Positions 4,609 to 61,535 of a DNA stretch of 64,000 nucleotides are shown here, one piece after another. The notes beneath the pieces are model-generated. The model was given only the letters and a program-made list of their open reading frames with translations, was not told the origin of the DNA and did no database searches. Position 1 is the first letter of the stretch. Each line of letters begins with the position of its first letter. Made by a program: the position numbers and the translations under genes. Origin of the DNA: Candidatus Obscuribacterales bacterium (GTDB lineage Bacteria > Cyanobacteriota > Vampirovibrionia > Obscuribacterales > Obscuribacteraceae); the NCBI GenBank assembly GCA_019750335.1, contig JAIEOQ010000003.1, positions 496,001 to 560,000 of the forward strand, read 5' to 3'.

Positions 4609-5274
4609 TTATCTGCCGATTAAAGAACGAATTCCGTTAATGGCATTGGAACCGGTTGATCCCCAGCTGCTGTAACCGCCGCCGTAAGGGGTGCCATAGC
4701 TATAAGTTGTCGGACCGGAACTCCAGCTGTAGCTAGAACCACCAGGCATTACTACCGGTGTGGTTGAGCCGCCAGAACCCCAGCTGTAACCACCGCCGTA
4801 GTTACCACCATAATTGCCACCGTAACTCCCGCCTGGATTGTAATAAGGCGGATTAGGTGAAACAACGCCGTTCGGATTTACGTAAGGGGGGTTAGCAGAA
4901 ACGAATCCGCCATTACCTGTCGGACGCATATTCGGATTGTAATAAGGATTGTTGTTGTAGCCACCGTTACCGTAGCCATAACCATACTGATTGCCATAAC
5001 CACCGTTGCCGTAGCCTGGTGCGTAGCAATTACCACCAGTTCTCGGAACTGGGGTGCATGTGCCGGGTCCGCCGATGATTGGGGGAGTAACGGTACCAGG
5101 TCCACCGACATAGCAAGGACCGCCGGTCATTGGCGGAGCAATTGCAGTCGGTCCCGATCCGACAATACTAAGTCCACCACTGCTTGGTGTCGAGCCAGAA
5201 GAGTTCTGTGCCAACGCCGGTAGCTGACTGCTGATTAGCATCAACAAAGTAAATGCGGTTGTCGTTCTAACCAT
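4609..5274 (-). CDS. secreted Gly/Pro/Tyr/Asn-rich low-complexity protein
   Basis: A 221-residue protein with a clear signal peptide (TTAFTLLMLISSQLPALAQ). Nearly everything after it is low-complexity: GG-P/GT motifs with four cysteines at residues about 53-85, GYGNGGYGNQYG-type stretches at 90-105, repeated NPPY(Y/V)NP, then GGNYGG and SWGSG runs. No catalytic domain is visible. Proteins of this kind are often surface or matrix components, but that is only an analogy here. The start has AGGAGA about 7 nt upstream. It is monocistronic and ends at the 4561-4587 terminator. Two other exported Gly-rich proteins lie in this window. Confidence 0.8.
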   Translation of the reverse strand: MVRTTTAFTLLMLISSQLPALAQNSSGSTPSSGGLSIVGSGPTAIAPPMTGGPCYVGGPGTVTPPIIGGPGTCTPVPRTGGNCYAPGYGNGGYGNQYGYGYGNGGYNNNPYYNPNMRPTGNGGFVSANPPYVNPNGVVSPNPPYYNPGGSYGGNYGGNYGGGYSWGSGGSTTPVVMPGGSSYSWSSGPTTYSYGTPYGGGYSSWGSTGSNAINGIRSLIGR

Positions 5275-6239: not shown

Positions 6240-7021
6240 CCGTTTAAAAGACGTTTGTAATTAGTGGTCGCTTTTAAGGACGGATCCAGCGCAACACGTT
6301 CATCAAACACGAAACATTCGCCATCCCAATGAGCGCCGCCGACTTCTTCAAAATAACGCAGGATGCCGCCCTCAAGTTGATAAACTCGCGGTAAATTCAA
6401 TTCTTGCATGTATAAAGCTGCCTTTTCGCAACGAATGCCACCGGTACAAAAAGAAACAATGGTTTTATCCTGTAACCCGTTTTTTTGGTCTGCCGCGGCA
6501 GCATTGATTGATTCGGGAAACTGGCTGAAGCGCTCTATTCCAAAGTCAACAGCGTTTTTAAAAGTACCGATTTTAACTTCAAAAGAATTACGTGTGTCGA
6601 GAAGAAGAATTTCTCGACCTTCATCATCATGCCCGCGATCAAGCCATTCTTTTAGCGTGTCAGCCTTAACCGACGGCGCTCGTCCGGACTCCGGCTGAAT
6701 GGTCGGATGTCGCATAGTAATAATCTCTTTGGCTTGGCGAACAATCATTCGTTTAAAAGGCTTATTCGTCGAAAAGCTTTCTTTTATTTCCATGTCGGCA
6801 AAACGCCCGCCAAACAGCTCGTCTTCACGCAAATAATTCAAGAAGGCATCAATTGCTTCCTGGCTTCCTGCCAAAAATAGGTTGATCCCTTCTTCAGCCA
6901 GAACAACGGTGCCTTTAAGCCCAAGGGCTAGGCAGCGCTCTTTTAAGGGTAACAGCCAAGCTTTCGGCTCGGGAATAGCAATGAATTTGTAAGCAGCGAT
7001 ATTTAGCGTTTGCATATCCAT
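6218..7021 (-). CDS. trhO: tRNA uridine(34) hydroxylase TrhO (rhodanese-related sulfurtransferase, YceA family)
   Basis: A 267-residue member of the YceA/TrhO family, which makes 5-hydroxyuridine at wobble position 34 of tRNA, the first step to cmo5U/mo5U. The N-terminal acylphosphatase-like domain (residues 5-95) has GTVVLAEEGIN. The rhodanese domain (about 115-230) has LLDTRNSFEV and the active-site loop FCTGGIRCEKA with catalytic Cys192. The C-terminal DGECFVFD region is also family-typical. It is cytosolic. The start is ATG at 7021 with no strong ribosome site; an in-frame ATG two codons later is possible. It is convergent with the lipoprotein gene. Confidence 0.92.
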   Translation of the reverse strand: MDMQTLNIAAYKFIAIPEPKAWLLPLKERCLALGLKGTVVLAEEGINLFLAGSQEAIDAFLNYLREDELFGGRFADMEIKESFSTNKPFKRMIVRQAKEIITMRHPTIQPESGRAPSVKADTLKEWLDRGHDDEGREILLLDTRNSFEVKIGTFKNAVDFGIERFSQFPESINAAAADQKNGLQDKTIVSFCTGGIRCEKAALYMQELNLPRVYQLEGGILRYFEEVGGAHWDGECFVFDERVALDPSLKATTNYKRLLNGELELID

Positions 7022-7026
7022 ATAAT

Positions 7027-7053
7027 ATCAACCCTGCCTGAGACAGGGTTGAT
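7027..7053 (-). terminator. terminator of the bicupin gene
   Basis: A perfect 10-bp stem ATCAACCCTG/CAGGGTTGAT with a 7-nt loop lies 20 bp downstream of the bicupin stop and just before trhO. On the minus strand it is followed by an A/T-rich tail. Confidence 0.65.
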
Positions 7054-7072
7054 TAGCATCTGCTAAGACAGA

Positions 7073-8212
7073 TTATTGATTCTTTTTGCCATCGGTTATA
7101 AGCGGATTATTCTGCGGAAAGCTTTCAAATATCTTCTTCGGCACTAAGAAGTTGGTACCAAGCATTTGGCTTGTATTTGAGGCCATCCATTGCGAAAGCG
7201 AGATCTCTTCATAGTTTCCGCTACCGAGCACAACCAACGTAACGCAATCTTCTTTATCCGAAGCATTCTCAATGTAATGCCCGTAACCTTGAGGCACATA
7301 ACCGACATCACCGGGTCCGAAATCTTCCATTTTTGCTCGTCCACCCGAACCAAATACGGTCATATGAGCATGTCCGGAAATATAATATTGCCACTCATCG
7401 GCGTTAGGGTGCCAATGCATTTCACGTAAACCGCCTGGCTTCAGCGTTTGAATTGCACCGGTCATTGTCGTTGAAATTGGAAACTGTTTTTGTGATGCAA
7501 CTTGGAATCGTCCACCGTTGAAGATTTCACCTCTTTGTGCGCCAAGGCTGTATTTATGAGTCAAAGGCGGAGAGATTTCGGTGAAAGGCAAGGCATCAGT
7601 AGGCAAAGGCGCCGGTACCGGTCCTTGAGCTATGTATACTTCTTTGCTTGGAAAGTCTTTGAAAACATTGGCTGATGTTTGAAAGTTTTTCGCTAAAACT
7701 TCTTTCGGTGTATGAGCAAGCCAATCGCTAATACTGAATGTAGCAAAATCAGAGAAGCTACCGTTATCAAACACAAGGATGAAATGGCATTCTTCGTCGC
7801 CCAGTCCTTGGATTGAATGTCCGTGACCGCGCGGGAAATACCAAATATCACCGGGTCCGAAATCTTTTACTTCAACACGCTTTTCCGGATCGATGACCGT
7901 TATCCGGCATTTGCCTTTAATTACATAAGCCCATTCGGCAGCATTAGCGTGCCAGTGTAATTCGCGCAAAGCTCCTGGTTTGAGCCGCATTGAAACACCG
8001 GCAATGTTTTGTGATACCGGAAAGTTTTTTACTGTTGCTTCCTGAGCACTGCCACCATCGAAAAGACGTGGTGTTTGTTCTTCAAGGGGAAAACGAAAAG
8101 AAGGCAGAACAGCAGCATTAAGCGGATTGGCATCACCAGCTGCTAAAGCGTAACTGCAATTAGTCGCCGCAAAAATACCTAAAACAGCTAAGATCGAAAT
8201 TACAAGTTTCAT
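7073..8212 (-). CDS. oxdC: exported bicupin, oxalate decarboxylase family
   Basis: A 379-residue protein with a signal peptide and two cupin domains (about residues 55-165 and 240-350). Both metal sites look intact: H86, H88, E93, H132 in the first and the equivalent HWHPNADEW / GYGHYI set in the second. The family turns oxalate into formate and CO2 using manganese. The first-domain lid that carries the proton-donor Glu in Bacillus OxdC (SENST) reads SDFAT here (residues 154-158), so Asp155 replaces that Glu. The activity could therefore be slower, shifted towards oxidation, or act on another acid. An AAGGAAAG box precedes the ATG. It is monocistronic with a terminator behind it. Confidence 0.87.
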   Translation of the reverse strand: MKLVISILAVLGIFAATNCSYALAAGDANPLNAAVLPSFRFPLEEQTPRLFDGGSAQEATVKNFPVSQNIAGVSMRLKPGALRELHWHANAAEWAYVIKGKCRITVIDPEKRVEVKDFGPGDIWYFPRGHGHSIQGLGDEECHFILVFDNGSFSDFATFSISDWLAHTPKEVLAKNFQTSANVFKDFPSKEVYIAQGPVPAPLPTDALPFTEISPPLTHKYSLGAQRGEIFNGGRFQVASQKQFPISTTMTGAIQTLKPGGLREMHWHPNADEWQYYISGHAHMTVFGSGGRAKMEDFGPGDVGYVPQGYGHYIENASDKEDCVTLVVLGSGNYEEISLSQWMASNTSQMLGTNFLVPKKIFESFPQNNPLITDGKKNQ

Positions 8213-8353
8213 TCTTACTTTCCTTAGTCACAAACAGCCAAAAGAGTATGCGCTTGAGAAAGTATCTGCAAGTGCAAAACACTCATGTCAAGCTCTTTTC
8301 GGCAAAACCTGATATTCTTCTGAAGCCAAACAGCGTTGCAAAGAGAGCTTACG

Positions 8354-9562
8354 ATGATTGAACAAATACAAACTCAATGTTGCATAGTCGGCGGCGGTCC
8401 GGCCGGAATGATGCTCGGATTGCTTTTAGCTCGTCATGGTAACAATGTTGTCGTTTTAGAAAAACATGCCGATTTTTTACGCGATTTTCGCGGCGATACC
8501 GTTCATCCATCAACCCTGGAAATAATGCATGAACTGGGCATTCTAGATCAATTTTTGCAACGACCGCACCAAGCAGTCCAGCACCTGGGTGGTCAAATTG
8601 GCGACGAATTTGTGCCCTTAGCTGATTTTAGCCATGTATCAACACACTGCAAATTTATAGCGCTAATGCCGCAATGGCATTTTTTGAATTTTTTAGTTGA
8701 ACAAGCAAACAAATATCCCGGCTTCCGCTTGATTATGGAAGCGGAAGCAACAGATCTAATTCAAAAGCAAGGCAAAATTTCAGGAGTCCTGGCCAATACG
8801 CCTCACGGACAGATTGAAATTCAAGCAGATCTCACAGTCGGTGCCGACGGGCGTAAATCAATAATACGTGAACGTGCCGGCTTGCAAGTCGTTGATCTTG
8901 GCGCTCCAATGGATGTACTTTGGCTACGTTTATCAAAAAAAGATTCGGACCCAGGGCAAACTTTAGGACGAATTGGCGCCGGTCGCATATTTATCATGAT
9001 TAACCGCGACGAATATTGGCAGTGTGCTTTTGTAATTCCAAAAGGCGCTTATGCGGATTTAAAAGAAAACGGATTGCCGTCATTCCAACGCAATATTCTT
9101 GAGATTGCTCCATTTTTAGAGGATCGAGTCAATGAGCTTAAAGATTGGAACGACATCAGTTTGTTGACAGTAAAAGTTGATCATTTGCGCCGCTGGTATT
9201 GTCCTGGTCTTATATGTATTGGCGACGCAGCTCATGCCATGTCTCCAATCGGTGGTGTCGGTATTAATTTAGCGATTCAAGATGCTGTTGCAGCAGCCAA
9301 TATTCTGGCCGAACCGCTTACTACCGGGAACTGTTCGGTTTTTGATTTGGATAAAATCCAACACCGCCGAGAGTTTCCTACTCAAGCAACACAAAAAATT
9401 CAAGTGACCATCCAAAACCACATAATCAGTCGTGTTCTTTCCAGCAATCAAAAGCCGACTTTGGCTTGGCCCTTAAAATTATTCTGTCGCTTCCCCTTAT
9501 TGCGCCGCATTCCGGCTCAATTAATTGGGGTTGGCCTACGTCCGGAACATGTTAAGATCTAA
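8354..9562 (+). CDS. FAD-dependent monooxygenase (PHBH/UbiH-like)
   Basis: A 402-residue flavoprotein of the aromatic-hydroxylase group. It has the FAD-binding GGGPAG near residue 15 and the ELEKHADFLRDFRG-type end of the first beta-alpha-beta unit. It also has the conserved DG motif in GADGRKS and the second FAD motif GDAAHAMSPIGGVGIN near residue 295. It probably hydroxylates an aromatic or polyketide-like substrate using NAD(P)H and O2; the substrate is unknown. The frame extends to a TTG at 8336, but the ATG at 8354 has AGAGAG six bases before it. The next small membrane-protein gene starts 22 nt after its stop and may be co-transcribed. Confidence 0.88.
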   Translation: MIEQIQTQCCIVGGGPAGMMLGLLLARHGNNVVVLEKHADFLRDFRGDTVHPSTLEIMHELGILDQFLQRPHQAVQHLGGQIGDEFVPLADFSHVSTHCKFIALMPQWHFLNFLVEQANKYPGFRLIMEAEATDLIQKQGKISGVLANTPHGQIEIQADLTVGADGRKSIIRERAGLQVVDLGAPMDVLWLRLSKKDSDPGQTLGRIGAGRIFIMINRDEYWQCAFVIPKGAYADLKENGLPSFQRNILEIAPFLEDRVNELKDWNDISLLTVKVDHLRRWYCPGLICIGDAAHAMSPIGGVGINLAIQDAVAAANILAEPLTTGNCSVFDLDKIQHRREFPTQATQKIQVTIQNHIISRVLSSNQKPTLAWPLKLFCRFPLLRRIPAQLIGVGLRPEHVKI

Positions 9563-9746: not shown

Positions 9747-10658
9747 CTACGGTCCGTAACGACTGCGGCTAAGCCGGCGTTGTTCACCACCATCCGCTAT
9801 GCCGAATCCAGTTGCATTTCGATGGTAGTGATACCAACCGTTCATTTTTAACTCATGACCGAAAGCACATTCCTGGCAGCTTCCTTTCAGCCTGCCTACT
9901 GTTGCCTGAGCATACCTAAAGCCTCGATCATAAGGACTATAACGTAAGGCTCTTTTATAATATTTAGCTGCTTGCCGCAGCTCTTTGCGATCTTCAAAAA
10001 CCACACCGAGATCGTAATAAGCATCTGGATTATTCGGTTGCAGTTCAGCTGCAGCTTTAAATAGACGTTCAGCATTACGCCTATCGCCAACAGCATACAA
10101 ACGAACACCTTGGCTAAGCAAAAAATTGTTCTTATACGGACCGACCGGATAATATGCAGCTAAATGACCTAAGCCGCGCCGTTCTTCTATACGTTTCATT
10201 ATCTTTTCTTGAGCGACTTTGTCCCCTGAAGGCTGGGAGCTTTTAGCATATTGCCCAAGCCAAAAATCGGTCAATTCATCATATACGGCATCATCAACCG
10301 GCATGATTTTTTTATCGTTCTCTTGGCTTGTTTTTGGCGTTGCCTCAGGATCCGTATATATTCTAGTGGCGAATTTTTGTCCTTTTCTTTCAATAATTAC
10401 GGTTATCCGCCCTTCTTTGACTTCAGCCGATATCAGCTTATCTTCCGCCGCTAAATTGGCTTTTGCTGCCGGTGAGTCGACGCCAACTTTAGTAATTAAA
10501 GAAGGTAGATTTTCCGAAGAAAGAGTGATGCCGGCCTCAGCACAAGAAGCTGCCACCATGTCAACCCGTCCCTCAAGTTTCAAAGGCGCCGGTTCGGCAA
10601 GTACTGCAAGAGGTCCCGAAAAAAAAGCCACAAATAAAGCCAGAAACAGACGAATCAT
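9747..10658 (-). CDS. exported PDZ-like / TPR protein
   Basis: A 303-residue protein with a signal peptide (MIRLFLALFVAFFSGPLAVLAEP). Residues about 25-95 look like a PDZ-type module (GITLSSENLPSLITKVGVDSPAAKANLAAEDKLI, cut by me into the typical SPA-x-x-A-x-L-x-x-D-x-L pattern). Two or three TPRs follow at about 190-265 (NPDAYYDLGVVFEDRKELRQAAKYYKRAL), then a tail with a CQEC pair. The ATG overlaps the stop of the upstream gene (ATGA), which fixes the start at 10658 and implies coupled translation. Last gene of the exported-protein run from 14268 to 9747. Role unknown; probably an envelope scaffold. Confidence 0.82.
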   Translation of the reverse strand: MIRLFLALFVAFFSGPLAVLAEPAPLKLEGRVDMVAASCAEAGITLSSENLPSLITKVGVDSPAAKANLAAEDKLISAEVKEGRITVIIERKGQKFATRIYTDPEATPKTSQENDKKIMPVDDAVYDELTDFWLGQYAKSSQPSGDKVAQEKIMKRIEERRGLGHLAAYYPVGPYKNNFLLSQGVRLYAVGDRRNAERLFKAAAELQPNNPDAYYDLGVVFEDRKELRQAAKYYKRALRYSPYDRGFRYAQATVGRLKGSCQECAFGHELKMNGWYHYHRNATGFGIADGGEQRRLSRSRYGP

Positions 10659-11764
10659 GAAGAAGCGGTCTGCCCTTTGTTGCTTGAATCTTGTAGGCGA
10701 ACCAACATCCATTGCTGTGTATTGTCTTTAGTGTAATGAACAAGAATCGGGCTTTGCGGTTTCAATAGATTGCTTATGCCGGTATCGTAAACAACTGTTT
10801 TATTATTGCCAACAATCCAGCTTACTCGCTGAGCTTTTTTATCTACAGCACCGCGAATAGGCAAAGTTTCATTAGTCAAACTATTGAAATAATTGCCCCG
10901 AATAATACCTTGCTTATTTGTACAAAGCTGCATAATCTGAGACGAATCACTTTGATTGTTTTGCACAAGAGCATAAACACCAAGCGGCTTCCATTCTTTA
11001 GCATATTTGCTTTGTGCCGCCGCCGTTGTCGGCTGCGTATTTTCAGGCGGAGCTGATACAGCTAAATTTTGTGCTTGTTCGTAATATTGGTCGTCGGTAT
11101 ATGTAGGCGTACTGCCGTAATAAACTTGGCCATCATCGCCATAGCTGATGTTGTCACCATAATCATAATCAACTAGGTCGCCATAACCGCCACCCCACCA
11201 ACCGGCTAGATCGTCCCAACGAGCTTCATTCCAAGCCCAACGATCACCCCAATAACGATTGTTCCAACTGTTTGGATGATTTTGCCACCAGCCATGATTG
11301 AAAGCATTGTAATTATTGAAACCGCTACGTACCTGGCTACCTCTTGCGGCTAAATCAGCCGAGCTTACACGTTGAGTACCGGCGTCACGCGCCGTAGGAC
11401 TATTGCTTATTCGACCGAAACCGCCATCAGTAGCAAAGCTGTTTGCATGATTGACGGCACCATAATTGCTGACACCGTCATCGCCCGGACGGCCGAAATC
11501 TGCCGGCAGATCATGGCTGAAAGCAGAGTCACGACTAGCCGGAAGACCATCGCCATAACCGCGTCCATAATCACCGCGTCCACCACCGTATCCACGTCCG
11601 TAATCGTCACGCCCGTAGCCGCGACCATAATCACCATGATAGCCACCGCCACCGCCGAAATGACCGCCGCCGCCACCACCGCCTCTGGCCCAGGTCAAAT
11701 TATTTGCCGGCAGTAGCAGAGACACGAATAAAATTGAAAACAATATGCCGCTGTTTTTATTCAT
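10655..11764 (-). CDS. secreted Gly/Tyr/Asp-rich protein with conserved C-terminal domain
   Basis: A 369-residue protein with a signal peptide ending near NLTWA. It then has a glycine run and about six RGYG/DYGR repeats (residues 28-75), an Asn/Trp/Tyr-rich middle (NHGWWQNHPNSWNNRYWG near 155), and a compact C-terminal domain of about 115 residues. That domain (WKPLGVYALVQ … QWMLVRLQD) looks like a small beta-barrel. An AGGAG box lies 8 nt before the ATG. It starts 11 nt after the NTF2-like gene stops and overlaps the next gene by ATGA, so it is the middle of an operon. Probably a surface or matrix protein, by composition only. Confidence 0.8.
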   Translation of the reverse strand: MNKNSGILFSILFVSLLLPANNLTWARGGGGGGGHFGGGGGYHGDYGRGYGRDDYGRGYGGGRGDYGRGYGDGLPASRDSAFSHDLPADFGRPGDDGVSNYGAVNHANSFATDGGFGRISNSPTARDAGTQRVSSADLAARGSQVRSGFNNYNAFNHGWWQNHPNSWNNRYWGDRWAWNEARWDDLAGWWGGGYGDLVDYDYGDNISYGDDGQVYYGSTPTYTDDQYYEQAQNLAVSAPPENTQPTTAAAQSKYAKEWKPLGVYALVQNNQSDSSQIMQLCTNKQGIIRGNYFNSLTNETLPIRGAVDKKAQRVSWIVGNNKTVVYDTGISNLLKPQSPILVHYTKDNTQQWMLVRLQDSSNKGQTASS

Positions 11765-11775
11765 TGTTTCTTCTC

Positions 11776-12702
11776 CTAGCCTTGATCACGGCTTACTTTA
11801 ATAACGCCAGTATCAGGAAATTGTTTGTCCAAGGGAGAGCCAAGAAGGTGTCGCCCGGTCGATTGCCAGGTAAACGTATCTTTATTTTCCGGCTTGATGA
11901 TATAGTCAGCCCAAGCTATGCAACCGTCTGTTTCTGTTGAACGAGCGTGAGCAACAAAAGATTTATTTGTTTTTTCCCACCAAGCTTCACCATAGCCACC
12001 ATTACTTCCGCATTGCCAGGAACAGATTTGGCGGCGTAACGGATTCCAATAAATAATTTGTACATCGGTCGATTTGGACCCGTCGGCAGCTTCGCAGATT
12101 GATTCACTACGAATCATTTTTTTATCGCCAATCCAATCAAACTTTAAGCGCAACGTACCTTGAGGACTTTTAGCCGTCCAGGAACCAACGAGCCAGCCTA
12201 AATCATCAACCAGACTTTCAGGTTTTGGCATTGATTGCGGAAGAAACGATTCAGATACATTGAGCATCTGCCATTTACCATCGCGCTTTATATGAAAGGT
12301 CGTGTATCTTGCCGAAGATTGCGGAGCCGCAGATTGAATAAGCTTAGTTGTGCCTTGCTCAATTGCCGTATTTTCTGAAGGAAATTCAAGTGATTCGATA
12401 GTAACGTTAAAACGTTGTTTGCCAAACTGTTTGAAGAACCCGGACATTTGCTCTTTAATTGCCTCGCGACCGCGATAAACATTACCCAATGCATCCGTAT
12501 ACACTGCGTCTGCTGCCCACATATCGGCTAAGGTAGCGATATCGGCTGCAGCAAAAGCTTTTACATAGTCATCTGCTTGTGCTCGAATCGCCGCTTCATC
12601 ATTTTTATGATCGACATTAACCGAATCATGAGCTAACGCCGATGAAAATATTTGCCCGGCAACAAGCATCAACGTCAGATAAAAACTCTTCGCTGTTCTC
12701 AT
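11776..12702 (-). CDS. exported SnoaL/NTF2-like (SgcJ/DUF4440-type) protein
   Basis: A 308-residue protein with a signal peptide (SFYLTLMLVAGQIFSSALA). Residues about 33-155 form an NTF2-like cone domain: the IRAQADDYVKAFAAADIATLADMWAADAVY start and the YRGREAIKEQ helix are typical of SgcJ/EcaC and ketosteroid-isomerase-like proteins. The C-terminal half (about 165-305) looks like a lipocalin- or heme-binding-like beta domain (WLVGSWTAKSPQGTL … WQSTGRHL). Many such proteins bind small ligands rather than catalyse. A GGAGAG box precedes the ATG. First gene of the tightly packed trio 12702-9747, and only 46 bp behind the FG-GAP-like gene. Confidence 0.82.
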   Translation of the reverse strand: MRTAKSFYLTLMLVAGQIFSSALAHDSVNVDHKNDEAAIRAQADDYVKAFAAADIATLADMWAADAVYTDALGNVYRGREAIKEQMSGFFKQFGKQRFNVTIESLEFPSENTAIEQGTTKLIQSAAPQSSARYTTFHIKRDGKWQMLNVSESFLPQSMPKPESLVDDLGWLVGSWTAKSPQGTLRLKFDWIGDKKMIRSESICEAADGSKSTDVQIIYWNPLRRQICSWQCGSNGGYGEAWWEKTNKSFVAHARSTETDGCIAWADYIIKPENKDTFTWQSTGRHLLGSPLDKQFPDTGVIKVSRDQG

Positions 12703-12748
12703 TTATATCTCTCCAGGATCTAGTCCTAGTATTCCCAAAATAAAGGGT

Positions 12749-13684
12749 TTATAGCCTCTTCAATTCAGGATTGATTCTGCGCAAAAATGACCAATAAATA
12801 CTCTCTTCGCTAATTTTGCTTGTGAAATCATTCCACAGTTGATCCTTGCTGTATTTTTGTATTTTTGAATTTTTCAGGTTGGCGTCATAAATCATTATTG
12901 GTTTGTTGCCCGGATAAAGACAGTTAAGCAATTCACGAGCTTGCTTTGCATTACCTGAATAAATCAAATCCAGCATAGCCGACCAAACCGCCTGAAACTC
13001 TTCGGCACTTTCAGTACCAGGAGGCTTCATTTTGACTTTTTTACTGGCTGCTTCTTTTTTCAAACGTACAGCCGAAACAATCTTATCCAAATCAACATTC
13101 TTTTTTACATTTAAAGGCGATGGAGCATAAGCTTGACCGTTCCATTGCAACACTAACATCGGCGAAGCGTTGGCACCTAAATAAGATAAAGGTTGTGCTG
13201 AAAGTAGCTCCGGTTTTCGATCATGATTAAGATCGGCAAATTCCACATAGCCACTGTTAAATATCATGCTCGGCTTTACTTCGTACAAACTCATAATCAT
13301 GGTGTTATGGCTTTTACCGGTGTGATAATCAAAAACCAACTCCGGGATGCCATCGCCATTCATATCTTTAGCTACAGGTTTCATATCTATATCAAGCACG
13401 GATGAGCTGGCAGTTTCAGCAAAGGGATCGATAAAACGATAACCGTCTCCGGATAATATCGCTTCTTGATTTTTAAATCGCGCACAATTAAATAGTACGT
13501 CCTTATTTTTGATCATCTTAAAAGTGAGAACAGTATTTCCAGCAATCTCTTGCTCGATTGTATAGCGCCCAAGCTTGAACGACCGCTTAGTCGTTTGCAC
13601 CGTCGTATCCGGCTTTGGCACCGCTAAGGTTTGAGGACAGAGAGTAAACAGTACAAGACCGGTAATAACAAATTGCCGCTTCAC
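12749..13684 (-). CDS. exported FG-GAP/VCBS-like protein
   Basis: The protein is 311 residues from the GTG at 13684. That codon overlaps the upstream stop (GTGA) and begins directly with a signal peptide (KRQFVITGLVLFTLCPQTLA); a longer reading to 13723 would place extra residues before it. The middle has calcium-binding-like loops (MNGDGIPELVFDY and DLNHDRKPELLSA) as in FG-GAP/integrin-type repeats, and the last 90 residues are helical and basic. No catalytic motif is seen. It is translationally coupled to the SAF lipoprotein, so the two probably work together at the envelope. Confidence 0.78.
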   Translation of the reverse strand: MKRQFVITGLVLFTLCPQTLAVPKPDTTVQTTKRSFKLGRYTIEQEIAGNTVLTFKMIKNKDVLFNCARFKNQEAILSGDGYRFIDPFAETASSSVLDIDMKPVAKDMNGDGIPELVFDYHTGKSHNTMIMSLYEVKPSMIFNSGYVEFADLNHDRKPELLSAQPLSYLGANASPMLVLQWNGQAYAPSPLNVKKNVDLDKIVSAVRLKKEAASKKVKMKPPGTESAEEFQAVWSAMLDLIYSGNAKQARELLNCLYPGNKPIMIYDANLKNSKIQKYSKDQLWNDFTSKISEESIYWSFLRRINPELKRL

Positions 13685-14268
13685 TGTTTTTTCTTCGCCT
13701 CCGGTATTTGAATGTCTTGCCAACAGACAAGCCGTCCAGCCGGAATTCCCACAGAAGTCAAACCGACAATTTCGTCACGGGAATGAACCATATCAAGCGG
13801 CGCTTCATTTTCAGGCACAATTACATCGGACAACTGATCGACATCAATAATTTCATCCTTGCGCAGCTCTCGATTGCTTACTAAAAGTCGCACACCTTCT
13901 CTTGAGTTAATATAAACATGAGCTGAAGGGCGATCCCGTCCGTCTTCAACTTGCTTAAACTTCGCATCTTGAAGGTTGTGAAAATAAAGTGGTTGTCCAG
14001 CTTTAAGATTGTGTCTAGACGTAGCACCGATTGCCTCTTCGGCAAAACAAAGCTGATCGACGCCTGCTACCGCGGCAGCGACAGGTCGCTCTTGAACATC
14101 GGCAGCGCTAATTTTGATTCCTTTTGCCACATCTTTAGTTAAGAATAAACCTTTCTCCGGCCAAGTGGTGTGATAGCCGGCAATATCGGCAGTTGCCCCG
14201 GTGAAAACCGGCGCGCAGGCTGAAAACACTAAAGAAAGGATCAGGCTACAGTAAATATAGCGAGGCAA
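13681..14268 (-). CDS. lipoprotein with two SAF-like domains
   Basis: The frame is open to 14430, but the best start is TTG at 14268, with GGAG 8 nt upstream. From there a lipoprotein signal follows at once (hydrophobic core, lipobox VFSAC, Cys18); this gives 195 residues. Residues about 45-105 look like a SAF domain (LTKDVAKGIKISAADVQ … AGQPLYFHNL), and a second copy covers about 125-190 (SNRELRKDEIIDVDQLSD … AGRLVCWQDI). SAF domains occur in CpaB/FlgA pilus and flagellar assembly proteins and in some enzymes. No pilus genes are nearby. It diverges from the DUF3142 gene, with 70 bp between the starts. Confidence 0.75.
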   Translation of the reverse strand: MPRYIYCSLILSLVFSACAPVFTGATADIAGYHTTWPEKGLFLTKDVAKGIKISAADVQERPVAAAVAGVDQLCFAEEAIGATSRHNLKAGQPLYFHNLQDAKFKQVEDGRDRPSAHVYINSREGVRLLVSNRELRKDEIIDVDQLSDVIVPENEAPLDMVHSRDEIVGLTSVGIPAGRLVCWQDIQIPEAKKKQ

Positions 14269-24812: not shown

Positions 24813-25253
24813 ATGCTTAAATATCGCCTTTTATTATGCTTTTTTTTAATTGCAGCGCTCTTTCCCATAAATACATCTGCGCAAAGAATTGCCGTGCTGG
24901 CTCCGCCGCGACCAACAAAAAAATCAATAAAACAATTCAAGACTATTGAAATCGATACTTATAAAAATGGGCAAGCTCTATTTGCCGATGTCGGCAGTCA
25001 TATCAAATTTACATTCAAAAATGCTGTACCACCGCCAACTGCCGTCCAGCTAACTTCATACACCGAAGGTATGTTTGCAGTCATTGCAGACGGCAGTCGC
25101 GGAGAGCCTATTGAACTAAAAATACTTTCGGGCAGCGAAGGAACAAAAGGACGCATTGATATTCGTTGCGAAAATGAGTTAGGAACAATCCATAGTTGGA
25201 GTCAAATATTTCCTAATCACTATAGAACCAATCGTTCCTTCTTCCAATTTTAG
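24813..25253 (+). CDS. exported hypothetical protein
   Basis: A 146-residue protein with a signal peptide (YRLLLCFFLIAALFPINTSAQ) and a mature region that looks like a small beta domain with no known motif. It starts 45 nt after the DUF1501 stop with a weak ribosome site and may be the third gene of that operon. The stop overlaps the stop of the convergent Gly-rich gene by 4 nt. No family recognised. Confidence 0.65.
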   Translation: MLKYRLLLCFFLIAALFPINTSAQRIAVLAPPRPTKKSIKQFKTIEIDTYKNGQALFADVGSHIKFTFKNAVPPPTAVQLTSYTEGMFAVIADGSRGEPIELKILSGSEGTKGRIDIRCENELGTIHSWSQIFPNHYRTNRSFFQF

Positions 25254-25795
25254 TTAGCTGCGGGATAAACAGTTTGAGTTACTGAAGGTTTTTGTCCTTT
25301 TTGCCAGTCGACAGTATAATCTCCTTTATTTTCGGTTTGAATCGTTGTTTGACCGCCTTGCCCTTTGACAAACTGAGTGCTTTGGTCATAACCGTATTGC
25401 TGGCCGGTTTGCGCATGGGTATAACTTTTACCGCCGTTGTACAAGCCTTGCCCGCTTTGAGCGTTATAAGCTCCGCCACCGTATCCGGCATAATGATTGC
25501 CGCTTGCCGACGTACCGCTTACGGCGCGTCCGCCGACAGCACCAACACCAGGAATTGCCATTCCGGCTCGACCGCCTTTATAAACGCCGCCGTTGGGCCC
25601 ATAGCCTCTAAAACCGGCAGCTCCGGCAGCTCCGCCTCCGTACATCTGCCCGCCGATTGCTGCCGCTTGACCATACTGTCCTTGATGGGTAAATCCGGCA
25701 GCCCGACCTCTATACCCGTAAGTTTTAAAGCTTTTTGCTTCTGCTGCTGAAATATTGAATAAAGCCAAAGCCACAAATAAATGGGTTATTTTCAT
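25250..25795 (-). CDS. secreted Gly/Ala/Tyr-rich protein
   Basis: A 181-residue protein with a signal peptide (THLFVALALFNISAAEA) and a Gly-rich body: GGGAAGAAGFRGYGPNGGVYKGG, then GNHYAGYGGGAYNAQSG, and a short polar C terminus (NKGDYTVDWQKGQKPSVTQ). GGAG lies 7 nt before the ATG. It diverges from clpS. No catalytic motif; probably structural or surface-exposed, by composition. Confidence 0.75.
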   Translation of the reverse strand: MKITHLFVALALFNISAAEAKSFKTYGYRGRAAGFTHQGQYGQAAAIGGQMYGGGAAGAAGFRGYGPNGGVYKGGRAGMAIPGVGAVGGRAVSGTSASGNHYAGYGGGAYNAQSGQGLYNGGKSYTHAQTGQQYGYDQSTQFVKGQGGQTTIQTENKGDYTVDWQKGQKPSVTQTVYPAAN

Positions 25796-53243: not shown

Positions 53244-54983
53244 TCAGTCTTTAATCGGCACTCTGGTTGTAGCGTTATCCAAAGAAAGCCTGCCCATGGC
53301 ATAAAGCAACTTTAGCTGTGACAGATTGAAATCAATAATCGCATTGGCTTTGCTGGTCAATGCCGCTGTGTAATTGCGCTGAGCAATAACTAAATCAAGT
53401 GTAGTGCCTACACCTTCTTGAACACGCACCTGGCAAACACGCAAACCTTCACGGGCATAAATTACCGCATCGGTTGTTTCTTCAATCAATTTTTCAGCAC
53501 TCATGCTAGACAAAAGAGCGTCACGCACCTGTTGATAAACTTTGTTCAACTCTCGATTGAACTCAAGCTTTACGCGGCGAGCATTGGCCCGCGCCGTCTC
53601 AACTTGGGCTACTTCTGTTAGGGCCATACCGCCGATGTTCCATTGCAAATCCAGTCCGACAGTAAACAAAGATTTGGTAGTGAAATGTTTAGGCGCATTT
53701 GGATTGGATGGTGCACCAAGCGGCAACGCCGACGCCGTCGAGACCGAACCGGCGCTCATACCGGAAGAACTTAAAGAAGTTTGTTGTGACGAGCTGCTAC
53801 TGCTGTTATTTATGCTTGTGGCATTGGAACCGCTGCCGATTACCGCACCGGTTGCAGCCAGTGTCGGCAACAAACTTGCTTTAGCTACTTTAATCGACTC
53901 CAATGCCGCTAAACGCAAATATTCATAGCGCTTCAACTCAGGACGATTGGAAACAGCAACGCGTAAAAGATCCGCCGGCAATAAAGATTTATCCACAAGC
54001 CTCACTTTAGTGATCCGCCTGTCTTTGAGAGTCAAATCAACTCCGGAATCCACATTCAATGAACGTGCCAAGTTAACTGCAGCTTCGCGACGCTTTACCT
54101 GTTCTGCAATCAGATCTTGTCTGTCTTTTGAAAGTTCGTATTTGGATTGCAAAACATCAAGCTGTGTGACCACACCGTTGTCGAATTGATCTTGATTGAC
54201 GACAACTGAAGCTTTAGCGACATCTACTGTTTTCATTTTGATTTGAAGCAATGCGTCTCGCAGTACAAGTTCGTAATACTGTTTGCCGACTTCCATTAGA
54301 GTATCGTTAGTTGTTGCTTTAGATAAAGACTGCGCAGCCTTGTAATTATCCTTGTTCAAAAGGGCTGTATGCAGAATACTGCCACCCTTATACAGATACC
54401 ACTGATAGCCGCTGTTCATCGTTATATATGAATTGGAGATTGGAATCACCAATCCGGCCGGGCTGACATAATTACCTTTCAAGCCTTGGTAAGTAAGACT
54501 GTTGACGATATTCGGCAAGAAGCCACCAAGCGCTCCATAATATTGCCAACGCTGAGCATCGACATTAGTATTGGCAATCTTGATGTCTAAATTGTTGGCA
54601 AGAGCAATTTTAAAAGCATCAGCAAGCCCGATTCTACTTTCGCCGGCAGCATCAAGCCCGTAAGGCGAATAACGTTGATCGATAGTAATCAAAGCCGTAA
54701 GCAAAGGTGGCTTGACAAAAATTTGTTCGGGATCGACAAACATACTGCCGGTGCTGTCGATAGTTTCACGAGCAATCTCTTGCAGAGTCCGTTGCGCTTC
54801 TTTATCCGCTTCGGTCATCTTAGCCGGCAAAGCACCATCAGGTAATTTGTTGGCGGCTTGGGGTTGAGATCTGGCGCCACCAATGGTGAATGCCTGAAGG
54901 CACAAACAAAGCAAGCAGGCGAGCTTTCGATTAGGCAAATTCAGGTCCGAAGATTTCAAGAGATTCCCGCTAAAAGCCACCAC
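53244..54983 (-). CDS. TolC-family outer-membrane efflux protein
   Basis: A 579-residue protein with an N-terminal signal (KLACLLCLCLQAFTIGGARS) and the double outer-membrane efflux domain layout: long amphipathic helices separated by beta pieces, RIGLADAFKIALANNLDIKIANTNVDAQR near the start of the first repeat and GVGTTLDLVIAQRNYTAALTSKANAIIDFNLSQLKLLYAMG (in pieces) near the end. It is divergent from the RND genes, so it should supply the outer-membrane duct of that tripartite pump. Start at GTG 54983; two TTG alternatives lie within 16 codons. Confidence 0.88.
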   Translation of the reverse strand: MVAFSGNLLKSSDLNLPNRKLACLLCLCLQAFTIGGARSQPQAANKLPDGALPAKMTEADKEAQRTLQEIARETIDSTGSMFVDPEQIFVKPPLLTALITIDQRYSPYGLDAAGESRIGLADAFKIALANNLDIKIANTNVDAQRWQYYGALGGFLPNIVNSLTYQGLKGNYVSPAGLVIPISNSYITMNSGYQWYLYKGGSILHTALLNKDNYKAAQSLSKATTNDTLMEVGKQYYELVLRDALLQIKMKTVDVAKASVVVNQDQFDNGVVTQLDVLQSKYELSKDRQDLIAEQVKRREAAVNLARSLNVDSGVDLTLKDRRITKVRLVDKSLLPADLLRVAVSNRPELKRYEYLRLAALESIKVAKASLLPTLAATGAVIGSGSNATSINNSSSSSSQQTSLSSSGMSAGSVSTASALPLGAPSNPNAPKHFTTKSLFTVGLDLQWNIGGMALTEVAQVETARANARRVKLEFNRELNKVYQQVRDALLSSMSAEKLIEETTDAVIYAREGLRVCQVRVQEGVGTTLDLVIAQRNYTAALTSKANAIIDFNLSQLKLLYAMGRLSLDNATTRVPIKD

Positions 54984-55061
54984 AGACAGTTCACTATAGA
55001 TTAGCAGAGCCTAACTGAAAAATTCAAAAAAGCTTGGGATTTTTCTGGGACAATCCTCTAA

Positions 55062-58000
55062 ATGTGGATTGTCGAGCTAGCTCTTAAACGACCTCATACG
55101 TTTTTAGTGATGGCGATCACTATTCTGCTTTTCGGCGTGCTCTCCATTTTGCGCATGCCAGTGGATATCTTTCCCAATATCGATATCCCCATTGTCAGCT
55201 GTGCCTGGACTTACACCGGTATGTCTCCGTATTACATGGAGAATTTGGTAACCACGGTCACCGAACGTGCGCTGACTTCGACAGTGAACGGTATCCAGCG
55301 CATGGAATCCATTTCACTTTCCAGCATGAGCATCGTCAAAGTCTATTTGAATAAGGGTACCGACATGGGGCAATCGGTAGCCATGGTTGAGTCGGTCTGT
55401 AGCGCCATTTTAAGACAGTTACCCCGCGGTATCAGCCCACCCTTTGTCACCGCATCCAGTGCTACTGACGTTCCGGTTTTGCAACTGATCATTGCCAGTG
55501 ACACACTTTCCGAAGCAGAACTCTTTGATATTGCCAATAATCTGATTCGCAGCCAATTGGCAACCATTCAAGGCGCTACCATACCTTTTCCTTACGGCGG
55601 CAAGTACCGCCAAGTAATGATTGATCTAGACCCGAAAGCTCTTTATGCCGTTGGCTTATCAGCAGACGACATAGTTACGTCTATCAATGATCAAAGTCCA
55701 ATTGATCCTTGCGGAACAGCCAAAATGGGTACTTATGAATACGTAATCGTACTCAATAACACACCTAACACTATCGAAAAGCTTAATGCTCTGCCTGTAA
55801 AATCGGCCAACGGCGCAGTCGTATTTTTGAAAGATGTAGCTCATGTTCATGACGGCTATCAGCCCCAAACCAACATCGTTAACTTAAACGGTAAGCGAGC
55901 CGTACTTTTCAACGTACTAAAGAACGGCGACGCTTCAACTCTCGACGTAGTCAGTCGCATTAAAGCGGCTTTGCCTCGTATTCGCACCATCGTACCTCCG
56001 GCTTGCAAAATAGATGTGCTTACGGATCAATCCATTTTTGTTCGTGAATGTGTCGACGAAGTAATCCGTGAAACAATCACTGCCGCTCTTTTAACGGCTC
56101 TATTAATGCTGGCGCTGTTAGGCAGCTGGCGAAGCACACTCATTGTCGCTACTTCAATTCCGCTGGCTATTCTCTCTTCCTTAATCTGTCTTTGCATAAC
56201 CGGACAAAGTATAAATTCCATGACTCTGGGTGGTCTGGCATTAGCAGTCGGTATGCTTGTCGACGATGCCACCGTAGCTATTGAGAATTTGCACAGTAAC
56301 TTAGCTCAAGGAAAAGAGATTACTCAAGCCATTTTGGACGGCGCTCAACAAGTTGCTTTGCCGGCGCTTGTTTCCACCCTATCTATTTGTATCGTATTTG
56401 TTCCGGTCATATTTCTTACTGAACCGTCACGTTCTTTATTCGTACCGATGGGTATGGCTGTTGTTTTTGCCATGTTAGCCTCTTACGGACTGTCGCGTAC
56501 TCTGGTACCACTCATGTCTAAAGCGCTGCTTTCAGGCGAGCATCACCAGCCGGGACAAGAGAATAAACCTCCGCAAAATTTTTTACTGCTCTTTTTTCAC
56601 AAAATATATCTAGCAATCGAAAAGGCTTTCGAAGCCGCTCGCAATACTTATCGCCACACTCTTGAGTCGGCGCTGAACAACGCTAAAGTCACTCTTTCCT
56701 TATTCTTCGCTTTTATCGTTCTTTCGCTCCTATTGCTGCCGCAAATTGGTCAGGATTTCTTTCCAACTATCGATGGTGGACAATTAAGATTGCATGTTTG
56801 CGTTCCAGCCGGCACACGCATTGAAAATACAGAACGCATTTTCCACAAAATTGAAAGCTCGATCAAAAAACTTTTTCCAAAAGACGAAATCGAAATGATT
56901 GCCGACAATATCGGCTTACCTGTAAGCGCAATCAATTATTCGCTCTCTGACAGTCAAACCGTCAGTGTAGCGGACGGCGAAATACTGGCTCATTTGTCCG
57001 AGAAACGCCAACACGATACAGCTTACTACCAACAAAAAATAAGACGCATGCTCAAAGCCGAATACCCGAGCTATCGTTTTTATTTCCAACCGGCAGATAT
57101 CGTCACTCAAATTCTCAACGCCGGCTTACCGGCACCGATTGACATACGCATAATCGGCTTCAACAAAGAGAATAACTACAAAATACTCAAAGATATCAAA
57201 CAGAAAGTAGCTCTTATTCCCGGTGCCACTGACGTATGTATCCACCAAGTAATCGACGCTCCCCATTTCGGTTGGTACGTAGACCGCACCCGAGCCGAAC
57301 AAATCGGCTTGACGCAAAAGGACATATCCAACTCTTTCTTGATTAATTTGAGCTCGAGCTTTCAAACTCAACCTAATTTTTGGTTGAACGCTAAAAATCG
57401 GATTAATTACAATATGGCAGCGCAAACACCGCAAAACAAGCTGACATCTCTTGACGATTTGCGCTTCATGTCTTTAACTCCAACCAATTCACAAACGACA
57501 CGAATAGAGCCGCCGGTATTAACCAATGTGGCAACTTTCAAACGTTCGCCTACACCCTCTGTAGTAAACCATTTGAATGTAGCTCCGGTTTTCGATATTT
57601 ATGCAGCCTGCCAGGGAGCAGACTTAGGTTCAGTCTCGACTCAGATCAAAAGCATATTGGATAAAATTCGCCCCGGACTGCCTCGCGGTACTTTTCTTTT
57701 TATGGGCGGACAAGTCATGAGTATGAATCTGGCTTTTATCGCCTTACTCTCCGGTCTGGCTTTTGCCATCGTTCTGGTTTATTTTCTCTTGGTCGTAAAC
57801 TTTCAATCTTGGACCGATCCATTCATTATATTAATGGCTATTCCCGGAGCACTTTCCGGAATTATTTGGAGCTTGTTCGTCACCCAAACCACTTTCAGCA
57901 TTCCGGCTCTGATGGGCACAATCATGACTATTGGCGTCGCTTCGGCCAATAGCATATTGATGGTTACTTTTGCCAATGAAGAGCTGAAAAAGAATGGCGA

Positions 58001-58238
58001 CTCATTTAAAGCAGCTCTGGAAGCTGGATATCAACGTTTTCGTCCGGTAATCATGACCGCAACAGCGATGATCATCGGCATGATCCCAATGGCTATCGGC
58101 GGCGGGCAAGGCGGTTCGCAGAACGCGCCGATAGGACGCGCCGTAATCGGCGGTTTAACCGTTGCCACTTTCTCCACTTTGTTTTTGGTTCCCTTGATAT
58201 TTTCAATTTCGCGCAAGAAGAAGGACCAGAAGCATTGA
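55062..58238 (+). CDS. efflux RND transporter permease (first of tandem pair)
   Basis: A 1058-residue inner-membrane RND (HAE/AcrB-like) protein with 12 predicted membrane segments and two large periplasmic loops. Both proton-relay Asp residues (401-402, in GMLVDDATVAIEN) are present. The Lys of TM10 (K940 of AcrB) is replaced: the motif reads GVASANSIL, as in a known subgroup of RND permeases. The Arg in FRPVIMT is kept. It should export drugs, lipids or metals with the next two products. It shares most of its motifs with the second permease. Confidence 0.93.
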   Translation: MWIVELALKRPHTFLVMAITILLFGVLSILRMPVDIFPNIDIPIVSCAWTYTGMSPYYMENLVTTVTERALTSTVNGIQRMESISLSSMSIVKVYLNKGTDMGQSVAMVESVCSAILRQLPRGISPPFVTASSATDVPVLQLIIASDTLSEAELFDIANNLIRSQLATIQGATIPFPYGGKYRQVMIDLDPKALYAVGLSADDIVTSINDQSPIDPCGTAKMGTYEYVIVLNNTPNTIEKLNALPVKSANGAVVFLKDVAHVHDGYQPQTNIVNLNGKRAVLFNVLKNGDASTLDVVSRIKAALPRIRTIVPPACKIDVLTDQSIFVRECVDEVIRETITAALLTALLMLALLGSWRSTLIVATSIPLAILSSLICLCITGQSINSMTLGGLALAVGMLVDDATVAIENLHSNLAQGKEITQAILDGAQQVALPALVSTLSICIVFVPVIFLTEPSRSLFVPMGMAVVFAMLASYGLSRTLVPLMSKALLSGEHHQPGQENKPPQNFLLLFFHKIYLAIEKAFEAARNTYRHTLESALNNAKVTLSLFFAFIVLSLLLLPQIGQDFFPTIDGGQLRLHVCVPAGTRIENTERIFHKIESSIKKLFPKDEIEMIADNIGLPVSAINYSLSDSQTVSVADGEILAHLSEKRQHDTAYYQQKIRRMLKAEYPSYRFYFQPADIVTQILNAGLPAPIDIRIIGFNKENNYKILKDIKQKVALIPGATDVCIHQVIDAPHFGWYVDRTRAEQIGLTQKDISNSFLINLSSSFQTQPNFWLNAKNRINYNMAAQTPQNKLTSLDDLRFMSLTPTNSQTTRIEPPVLTNVATFKRSPTPSVVNHLNVAPVFDIYAACQGADLGSVSTQIKSILDKIRPGLPRGTFLFMGGQVMSMNLAFIALLSGLAFAIVLVYFLLVVNFQSWTDPFIILMAIPGALSGIIWSLFVTQTTFSIPALMGTIMTIGVASANSILMVTFANEELKKNGDSFKAALEAGYQRFRPVIMTATAMIIGMIPMAIGGGQGGSQNAPIGRAVIGGLTVATFSTLFLVPLIFSISRKKKDQKH

Positions 58239-58261
58239 GGTTGTATTATATTCACCACGCG

Positions 58262-58289
58262 GCAAGATTTCGGCTCTCAGCCGGCTTGC
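58262..58289 (+). other. intercistronic stem-loop between the two RND genes
   Basis: GCAAG (58262-58266) pairs with CTTGC (58285-58289), and GGCT (58272-58275) with AGCC (58279-58282), in the 74-bp gap between the pump genes. There is no T-run, so it is a better candidate for mRNA processing or stability than for termination. Confidence 0.3.
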
Positions 58290-58312
58290 AAAGAGATTGA
58301 TGGTAGCTAAAA

Positions 58313-61300
58313 ATGTGGATTGTTGAATTAGCGCTGCACAAACCGCATACATTCATAGTTATGGCTTTATCCATTGCTTTGTTCGGCGTGCTTTCAATCA
58401 TGCAAATGGCTGTCGACATCTTTCCGGGAATTGACGTTCCGATTGTAAGTTGCGTCTGGACTTATACCGGCATGTCGCCTTACAACGTTGAGAATTTGAT
58501 TACTACGGTGACCGAAACTTGGTTGACCTCAACGGTTAACGGTATCGATCATATGGAATCGACTTCGCTTTCCGGTATGAGCGTAATTAAAGTCTATTTG
58601 CATAAAGGAACTAGCATCGGTGAAGCCGTAGCCATGGTGGCATCCGTCGGCAACGCCTGCTTGGAATATCTGCCGCCGAATATAACACCGCCTTTTGTTA
58701 CTGTCACAAGCGCCACCGATGTGCCGGTTATCCAGCTGCAAATAGGCAGTAAAACTTTATCCGAAGCGCAACTTTTTGATATCGCCAATAATTTTGTGCG
58801 CAATCAGTTAGCCACGATTCAAGGCGCCACTATCCCTTTTCCTTACGGCGGTAAATATCGTCAAGTCATGGTCGACTTGGACCCGGCAGCGATTATTGCC
58901 ACCGGTCTTTCAGCCAATGATGTAGTCACAGCCATCAATAATCAGAACATCATTGCCCCTTCCGGCACAGCCAAGATGGGTACGTACGAATACATAATGA
59001 CTCTGAACAATATTCCGAGCATTATCGACAAACTCAATGCCGTACCGATTAAGTCGCAAAAAGGCGCAGTCGTTTATGTGCGCGATGTGGCTCATGTTCA
59101 TGACGGTTATCAACCGCAATTGAACATAGTCAATCAAGACGGCAAAAGATCTGTTTTATTCAATATATTGAAAAACGGCGACGCTTCTACCCTTGCTGTC
59201 GTCAACCGGATCAAAGAAGCATTACCGCGCATTCAAGCGATCGTGCCTCCGGCGTGCAAAATAAGCTTACTCACGGATCAATCAATTTTCGTCAAAGAAT
59301 GTGTCGCCGACGTTATTCAAGAAGCACTTACAGCTGCCGGACTAACAGCGATTATGATGTTAGCTTTGTTAGGCAGTTGGCGCAGCACTCTTATTGTCGC
59401 TACTTCAATTCCCTTGGCCATGCTTTGTTCAATTATCGGTTTGCATATTTGCGGACAAACAATCAATTCAATGACTCTTGGCGGATTAGCTCTGGCTGTC
59501 GGTATGCTCGTCGATGACGCCACTGTCGAAATTGAAAACGTTCATCGTAATATGGACATGGGTAAAGACATAGTCAAAGCCATTCTTGATGGCGCTCAAC
59601 AAGTTGCTTTGCCGGCTTTCGTTTCTACTCTTTCCATATGCGTCGTTTTTGTGCCTGTACTTTTTCTGACCGAGCCCAGCCGTTCTTTGTTTATGCCTTT
59701 AGGCATGGCTGTAGTGTTTGCCATGATGGCTTCCTATGGCTTATCACGCACGATCGTACCTTTGATGTCCAAGGCTTTGCTTGGTGTTGAAGGACATCAT
59801 TCCGACTCCGAAAAACCGAAGAAAGTCTCAATCTTTACTCAAATCTATAAAATAATCGACACAGCTTTTGAATCAGCTCGCGAGAAGTATAGAGCAACTT
59901 TGCATTGGGCTTTACTTAATCCAAAAATCACTCTTTCCTTATTTCTCGGTTTTTATGCTCTTTCTTTTTGTCTCTTGCCACAAATCGGCGAGGATTATTT
60001 TCCGACTATCGACGCCGGACAACTACGTTTGCATATTAACGCGCGTCCAGGAACCAGAGTGGAAGAGACTGAACGCCTGTTCAAAAGAATTGAGCGTTCA
60101 ATCAAAGCGTTGATCCCACCTGGCGAAATAGAGGTTATTACCGACAATATCGGCATGCCGGTTAGCGGTGTTAATTACGCATTTTCAGACAGCCAGACCA
60201 TAAGCGAAGCTGATGGCGAGATCCTGATATCACTTGAAGAGAACAGAACTCAAAGCACCGCTTATTATCAAAAGCAGGTGCGCAAAATGCTCACTGAAAA
60301 ATATCCAGAGTGCAGTTATTACTTCCAACCGGCCGACATAGTCACACAAATACTTAATGCCGGATTACCAGCCCCAATTGATATTCGTATCACCGGCAAT
60401 GAAAAAGAAAAAAATTACGCCATTGCTCAAAAAATAAAGCGTGAAATACAAAAAGTGCCTGGCGCTGTAGATGTATGTTTGCACCAAGTAGTTAACGCGC
60501 CACAATTTGTTTTTGAAGTTGATCGAACCAGAGCCAATCAACTTGGTTTAACCCAAAAAGATGTATCCAACTCAGTGCTTGTTTCTTTAAGCTCAAGCTT
60601 CCAAACAGCGCCGAATTTTTGGCTCAATACAGGTAACGGAGTCAACTATAATTTAGCGGCGCAAACGCCTCAATACAAAATAAACTCCCTGGATAGCTTG
60701 TTTATTACCGCTCTGACTGGCAAACAAAAAGATCCACAAAATGTAGTTAAGCAAGATGGGCAACCACCGGTTCCGCCGCAACCACAAATGTTGGCTAACG
60801 TAGCTAAACCTTATCGCACAGCAACACCGGCCGTCGTCAATCATTTGAACGCCCAACCAGTGTTCGATATTTATGCTGCCTGCCAAGGTCGCGATCTCGG
60901 CGGCGTAGCCACAGACATCAAACAAATTCTCAATCGTTATCAAAGCCAACTGCCACGCGGCAGCTTTCTCTTTATGGGCGGTCAAGTAAGAAGCATGGTC
61001 ACTGCTTTTGCTGCACTTTTAGGCGGGCTTGTTTTTGCTCTCGTGCTTGTTTATTTGCTTCTAGTCGTAAACTTCCAGTCCTGGACCGATCCAATCATTA
61101 TCTTGATGGCCATTCCTGGCGCTTTCTCTGGCATTCTTTGGAGTTTGTTCATTACTCAAACGACTTTCAGCATTCCGGCACTGATGGGCACAATTATGAC
61201 TATCGGTGTTGCTTCAGCTAACAGTATTTTGATGATTACTTTTGCCAACGAACAAAAAGCAGAAGGTTTCGACTCTTTCCAATCATCACTAAACGCTGGC

Positions 61301-61525: not shown

Positions 61526-61535
61526 GGCAACCAAA

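Follow-up and report, generated by a model that had tools for sequence, protein, structure and literature searches.

A predicted exported NTF2-like protein and its probable glycine-rich partner, kept together in Obscuribacterales and Planctomycetota and seen from a five-gene run

Do five closely spaced genes for exported proteins, all on one strand, form one system? The question is raised by a run on the minus strand of a stretch of 64,000 nucleotides (G000:C12:496001-560000; hereafter the window) in an Obscuribacterales genome of 4.22 Mb and 14 contigs, probably from an uncultured bacterium that is related to the cyanobacteria but not photosynthetic. In order, the run encodes a putative lipoprotein with two SAF domains (the SAF protein), an FG-GAP-like protein, an NTF2-like protein (N), a glycine- and tyrosine-rich protein (Y) and a PDZ/TPR protein. 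The initial annotation described them as a cell-surface system of unknown function, a description that may fit N and Y but does not fit the five genes. In Obscuribacterales as in Planctomycetota, the gene for N closely precedes that for Y in the same orientation, and the sequence comparisons suggest that the system reading is to shrink from the five genes to the N–Y pair.

One set of 79 genomes, among them the window's own, was searched for each of the five proteins. N matched in 47 and Y in 45 of these genomes, all within family f1, which contributed 48 genomes to the set. At 62 of the 73 Y loci, N was located upstream in the same orientation. These linked loci are spread over 39 genomes, and many genomes, the window's own included, carry two N–Y pairs (23 of the 39). 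The 73 loci derive from 78 match rows, five of which were dropped as second pieces of Y frames already counted. Since many a Y match starts only some way into the Y frame, two matches on one strand were counted as adjacent when less than 2 kb lay between them; the widest such gap was 1214. In the ten loci fetched for inspection, the N and Y frames touch or nearly touch. The distance matrices of N and Y agree with each other (r 0.87 for the 40 pairs represented in alignments A3 and A4); this correlation is not counted as evidence, because linkage alone would produce it.

A scan of 84,980 species genomes for two peptide patterns that had been derived by aligning Y sequences yielded 66 loci that overlap in part with the 73 loci above. 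Their records are labelled Obscuribacterales, Melainabacteria or Cyanobacteria, Planctomycetota (families Pirellulaceae, Gemmataceae, Planctomycetaceae and Lacipirellulaceae), or vaguely. N adjoins Y at 57 of these loci, a figure composed of a scripted count of 56 and locus L122, where the Y frame, taken from stop to stop, extends over N; in eight of the nine misses Y lies at most 125 bases from a contig end. A further draw of 292 genomes from the window's own phylum gave a match in its own genome only, with 271 of the 292 not listed and the composition of the draw uncertain.

Apart from N and Y, no cluster of open reading frames (ORFs) is present at more than 12 of the 66 loci. The largest, ABC-ATPase-like by sequence, reaches at most 12 loci, none of them labelled Planctomycetota. 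Two candidates for a third conserved gene were rejected. A protein-kinase-like cluster (by sequence) occurs at eight of the 66 loci and in both phyla, but its distance and strand vary. A helicase-like cluster occurs at seven; in six of these, all from near relatives, it adjoins Y, and its seventh member is a piece of 137 amino acids in L121, far from Y. Only at locus L070, which carries the same pair as L145 (G002:C246) and belongs to a genome of the genus of the window, does a protein-kinase-like gene directly follow Y.

In 199 Planctomycetota genomes, Y was found in 12 (one to five copies), N (E <1e-20) in 13 and both in 12, and N was upstream of Y at 20 of the 22 Y loci. These searches scored at most 14 and at most 11 candidates per genome, and misses are no proof of absence. 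The pair is carried by the named strains Adhaeretor mobilis HG15A2 (L113:4067-6690) and Rhodopirellula solitaria CA85 (L123:3623-6711). In a tree of N calculated by a quick method, the Planctomycetota fall on one side of a branch with a support of 98. Two record labels look doubtful: in this tree L106 (Kuenenia) lies very near L121 (Planctomycetaceae), and L083 (Actinobacteria) groups with Obscuribacterales and moreover agrees in contig number and length (286, 5072 bases) with G006:C286 from the family of the window. Two Planctomycetaceae records (L131 and L132) contain two tandem N–Y pairs each, and a Planctomycetota contig (L112:4137-10335) has three N genes around one Y, a local expansion of N.

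The second pair of the window's own genome, N′–Y′, is situated on another contig (Table 1). Its neighbours on the other strand are CorA-type transporter-like and acetyltransferase-type genes, as labelled by eye, and a TPR protein and a protein combining a PDZ-like module with a VWA domain lie about 6–9 kb away. No SAF or FG-GAP-like neighbour was found within 19 kb of this pair.

N is predicted to be an exported protein in which an NTF2-like domain is followed by an OssO-like barrel. The first domain (residues ~28–156) matches DUF4440 (PF14534) in Pfam at 9e-14, over the curated cut-off, and passes the cut-off of TIGR02246 (SgcJ/EcaC), the whole protein scoring 52.0 bits versus 33.95. The AlphaFold2 model of N, based on a 55-sequence alignment, has a predicted local distance difference test score (pLDDT) of 90. 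In this predicted model, residues 23–157 match the SgcE6/SgcJ fold (Z 18.7), and the C-terminal β-barrel (~155–306) matches OssO (7sfp; Z 18.1, 142 residues, 3.1 Å, 11% identity) as well as 7sfn (Z 16.5, 137 residues), with 10–11% identity to OssO/OlmO. Polar residues of the NTF2-like domain are kept in both phyla, namely E115 (49/55), Y133 (47/55), H137 (45/55) and K139 (46/55), and therefore N could bind a ligand or carry out some reaction.

Despite passing both family cut-offs and sharing the SgcJ/SgcE6 fold, N differs from the SgcJ/EcaC family in its export-like N-terminus, its second barrel domain and its linkage to Y. The term 'oxidoreductase' attached to that family is a name-level annotation only, and we know of no activity for the branch to which N belongs. 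The OssO/OlmO spirocyclases (PDB 7sfp, 7sfn) are polyketide tailoring enzymes; their likeness to the C-terminal domain of N is one of predicted fold only, N being an exported two-domain protein with 11% identity.

The NTF2-like fold also connects N with the ι-carbonic anhydrases. According to excerpts of PMC8425729, ι-carbonic anhydrase identity was demonstrated for a bacterial protein that is annotated as SgcJ/EcaC and carries the (H)HHSS motif, and many bacterial members share this annotation and have an N-terminal pre-sequence. The motif, as given there, is present in none of the 55 N rows of alignment A3, and N is therefore not filed under this group. A linkage of an NTF2-like protein with another protein in an operon is described in excerpts of PMC3924330 for DUF3828 and NlpC/P60 proteins; there, in contrast, both the NTF2-like family and the partner are different ones, Y having no Pfam match.

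Y is predicted to be an exported Gly-rich protein with a small barrel at its end. Conservation in alignments A1 and A4 delimits a Gly-rich N-terminal part, a middle part rich in Trp, Tyr and Asn, and a conserved C-terminal β-barrel (~248–356). The AlphaFold2 model of residues 130–369 (pLDDT 91, predicted template modelling score (pTM) 0.89) contains helices, a Tyr-rich stretch (YDYGDNISYGDDGQVYY in the window protein) and the barrel. Glycine accounts for 33% of the N-terminal part in the window protein and for 33–36% in four of five Planctomycetota examples, while L119 has 20%, in a frame that takes in sequence upstream of the likely start. No match was obtained in Pfam for the window protein and three Planctomycetota proteins, nor in NCBIfam for the window protein and two Planctomycetota proteins. 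A sequence search of solved structures returned one match for Y (E 0.46), and the barrel resembles avidin/streptavidin-like folds weakly (best Z 6.3 for 6uc3_A; best Foldseek E 0.017). A possible 'mu-protocadherin' annotation of Planctomycetota Y proteins was dropped, as the literature searched gave no support for it. Judged by titles and abstract openings, no description of the N–Y pair or its parts was found in the literature searched.

Combined, these observations lead us to favour a reading to which we give an even chance: the five genes plausibly form a directon, of which just N and Y have been maintained by evolution, N as a ligand-binding protein and Y as the surface partner exported with it. 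Both proteins would leave the cytoplasm, and Y would be held at or near the cell surface via its flexible Gly-rich part. N would bind a small polar or aromatic ligand and serve Y, either as a ligand carrier or as a processing partner. The genes for the SAF, FG-GAP-like and PDZ/TPR proteins would be lineage-specific neighbours with separate roles, possibly co-transcribed. A more specific version, which we put forward tentatively and consider rather improbable, is that N and Y make up an undescribed two-protein exported system common to Obscuribacterales and Planctomycetota. Here, N, with two small-molecule pockets (NTF2-like and OssO-like), would load or modify a ligand, which the Y barrel would then display on a Gly-rich stalk.

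Several points weigh against the favoured reading. Y rarely occurs without N, but it does so at 11 of the 73 loci in the 79-genome search; four of these start at most 173 bases from a contig start, which accounts for the misses only in part, and the adjacency criterion is loose. Two of the 22 Planctomycetota Y loci lack N as well, and L096 among the named records genuinely departs from the pattern, the frame upstream of Y being unrelated. N does occur without Y, in 23 of 85 N rows of the 79-genome search and in 14 of 35 Planctomycetota rows, and therefore has other roles or stands in broken neighbourhoods. Since the alignments used for searching derive from pairs that this analysis itself found, the sampling leans to near relatives. 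The model of N and Y is itself built from sequence and predicted structure, from which we infer their function and physical contact. With a pTM of 0.64, the two-domain arrangement of N is unsure, and the avidin/streptavidin-like matches of the Y barrel are too weak (Z about 6) to imply a ligand. Furthermore, the 4-nucleotide overlap between the Y and PDZ/TPR genes could mean that the PDZ/TPR protein takes part in this one genome.

Two other explanations of the pair were weighed. N might be secreted and act as an enzyme, of the type of SgcJ/EcaC or of the carbonic anhydrases, with Y as its surface scaffold. The TIGR02246 match and the conserved polar residues are consistent with this, as is the best sequence match of N among solved structures, 3h51, which excerpts of PMC8425729 call an ι-carbonic anhydrase; the missing (H)HHSS motif argues the other way, and excerpts of PMC3924330 propose ligand binding without catalysis for some NTF2-like families, so that we regard the enzyme explanation as unlikely. 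It also seems improbable that N and Y are conserved neighbours without contact, kept side by side because they share a promoter and a need, e.g., envelope stress or starvation. Although our results show no contact between N and Y, and the agreement of their distance matrices is expected from linkage alone, Y is rarely alone, and the linkage persists in both phyla and between paralogous copies of the two genes.

In the run itself, the sequence confirmed the layout of the initial annotation: all five ORFs are open (Table 1), with the start codons and gaps as described, and the 4-nucleotide stop/start overlaps are GTGA at 13681–13684 (SAF and FG-GAP-like genes) and ATGA at 10655–10658 (Y and PDZ/TPR genes). 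The export signal ascribed to each protein was likewise recovered as an export-like N-terminus in all five by a crude rule, which N passes barely (1.97 versus a threshold of 1.9). However, of 54 crude gene calls in the window, the same rule picks out 32, some of them membrane proteins, and 5 of the 31 junctions between same-strand genes in the window show a 4-nucleotide overlap. Because both features are this common, the run barely exceeds the base rate of the window and, taken alone, is weak evidence for a system. A scan found no terminator-like site in the 46- and 11-nucleotide gaps; in the region such sites number 6 versus 5.7 expected, i.e., chance level. A single transcript for the five genes is possible.

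Table 1. Positions of the genes and gaps of the five-gene run in the window, and of the second N–Y pair in the same genome.
Feature	Position	Strand	Description
SAF protein	13681–14268	-	TTG start after GGAG, 195 amino acids; putative lipoprotein with two SAF domains, Cys after LVFSA; outside the conserved unit
FG-GAP-like exported protein	12749–13684	-	GTG start within GTGA, 311 amino acids; outside the conserved unit
Gap from FG-GAP-like gene to N	12703–12748	-	46 nucleotides; without terminator-like site
N	11776–12702	-	ATG start, 308 amino acids; predicted exported, two domains; first gene of the conserved pair
Gap from N stop to Y start	11765–11775	-	11 nucleotides; GGAG overlapping the N stop codon
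Y	10655–11764	-	ATG start, 369 amino acids; predicted exported; second gene of the conserved pair
PDZ/TPR protein	9747–10658	-	ATG start within ATGA, 303 amino acids; PDZ-like module and TPRs; outside the conserved unit
Second pair N′–Y′, own genome	contig C10, L135: Y′ 6951–8138, N′ 8168–9145	-	

The SAF protein matches SAF in Pfam in two stretches (3e-12). It resembles CpaB/RcpC of Tad/Flp pili and FlgA in its SAF domains and in weak matches to TIGR03170 (FlgA; 44.6 bits) and TIGR03177 (CpaB/RcpC; 25.0 bits), but both scores are below the respective cut-offs of 54.65 and 71, and the genome's own CpaB sits on contig C14. There, a Tad/Flp-type locus (L167, G000:C14:238000-252000) encodes CpaB, which at 134.6 bits is over its cut-off, along with two T2SSF proteins, a CpaE-like protein that stays below cut-offs and a TadA/CpaF-like ATPase whose TIGR03819 score of 339.9 bits falls short of the 373.15 required. 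The remark in the initial annotation that SAF domains occur here without a pilus locus thus holds for the run but not for the genome, and the SAF protein was rejected as a sign of a missing pilus. With this locus elsewhere, SAF domains are not out of place in the genome. They were found in 19 of 21 genomes searched, with up to 23 matches in one. The SAF protein as such has matches in 7 of the 79 genomes, the six others spanning 62–77 residues at E 4e-5 or worse, and none in the three same-genus genomes at the threshold used.

The FG-GAP-like protein matches FG-GAP_3 at E 2e-4, below the curated cut-off. It has matches in 10 of the 79 genomes (best other, 31% identity, E 1.6e-21), and in the nine other genomes, which include two of the three same-genus genomes, all of them are on contigs for which no Y is listed.

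In the PDZ/TPR protein, Pfam recognized TPR_2 (3e-9), while PDZ_2 (E 0.07) was below the curated cut-off. Matches were found in 78 of the 79 genomes, with 29 candidates scored per genome; among the matches listed, none covers the full length, and the best from another genome has 44% identity over residues 21–108. Many of those listed in relatives are to the PDZ-like part alone. This divergent PDZ-like module (9747–10658, residues ~22–108) recurs with other C-terminal domains, e.g., VWA in L135:16652-17698, and it may be a lineage-specific module.

The five-gene set was not seen together in relatives: neither the SAF gene nor the FG-GAP-like gene was found in 77 N–Y neighbourhoods of related and more distant genomes (L069–L135 and L145–L154; duplicates of the same places included, some cut by contig ends), and the PDZ/TPR protein gave single-domain matches only. 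The scattering named beforehand as the result that would speak against a system is therefore seen for these three genes, while N and Y are strongly linked. That all five genes are one recently assembled surface system, for which N and Y recruited the other three proteins, is very unlikely, since the single strand, the tight spacing without terminator-like sites and the five export-like N-termini are offset by the lack of a SAF orthologue or FG-GAP-like gene near a listed Y in three same-genus and 75 other genomes, by the second N–Y pair without these two genes, and by the frequency of export signals and overlaps in the window anyway.

Elsewhere in the window, two further Gly/Tyr-rich proteins with export-like N-termini are encoded at 4609–5274 and 25250–25795, the former without a match in a Pfam search. 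At 53244–62882 there are two adjoining similar genes that we take to be RND-type transporter genes, presumably preceded by an outer-membrane-factor-like gene on the other strand and followed by an adaptor-like gene.

For the reading of such loci, these results mean that a run of exported genes is not to be taken as a system without synteny. Y, a family without Pfam or NCBIfam match, gains a likely dedicated partner and a range of two phyla, and a 'hypothetical protein' (Y) together with a loosely labelled 'oxidoreductase' (N) becomes a testable pair. Obscuribacterales have hardly been cultured; as the pair is present in named Planctomycetota strains, it may be testable there.

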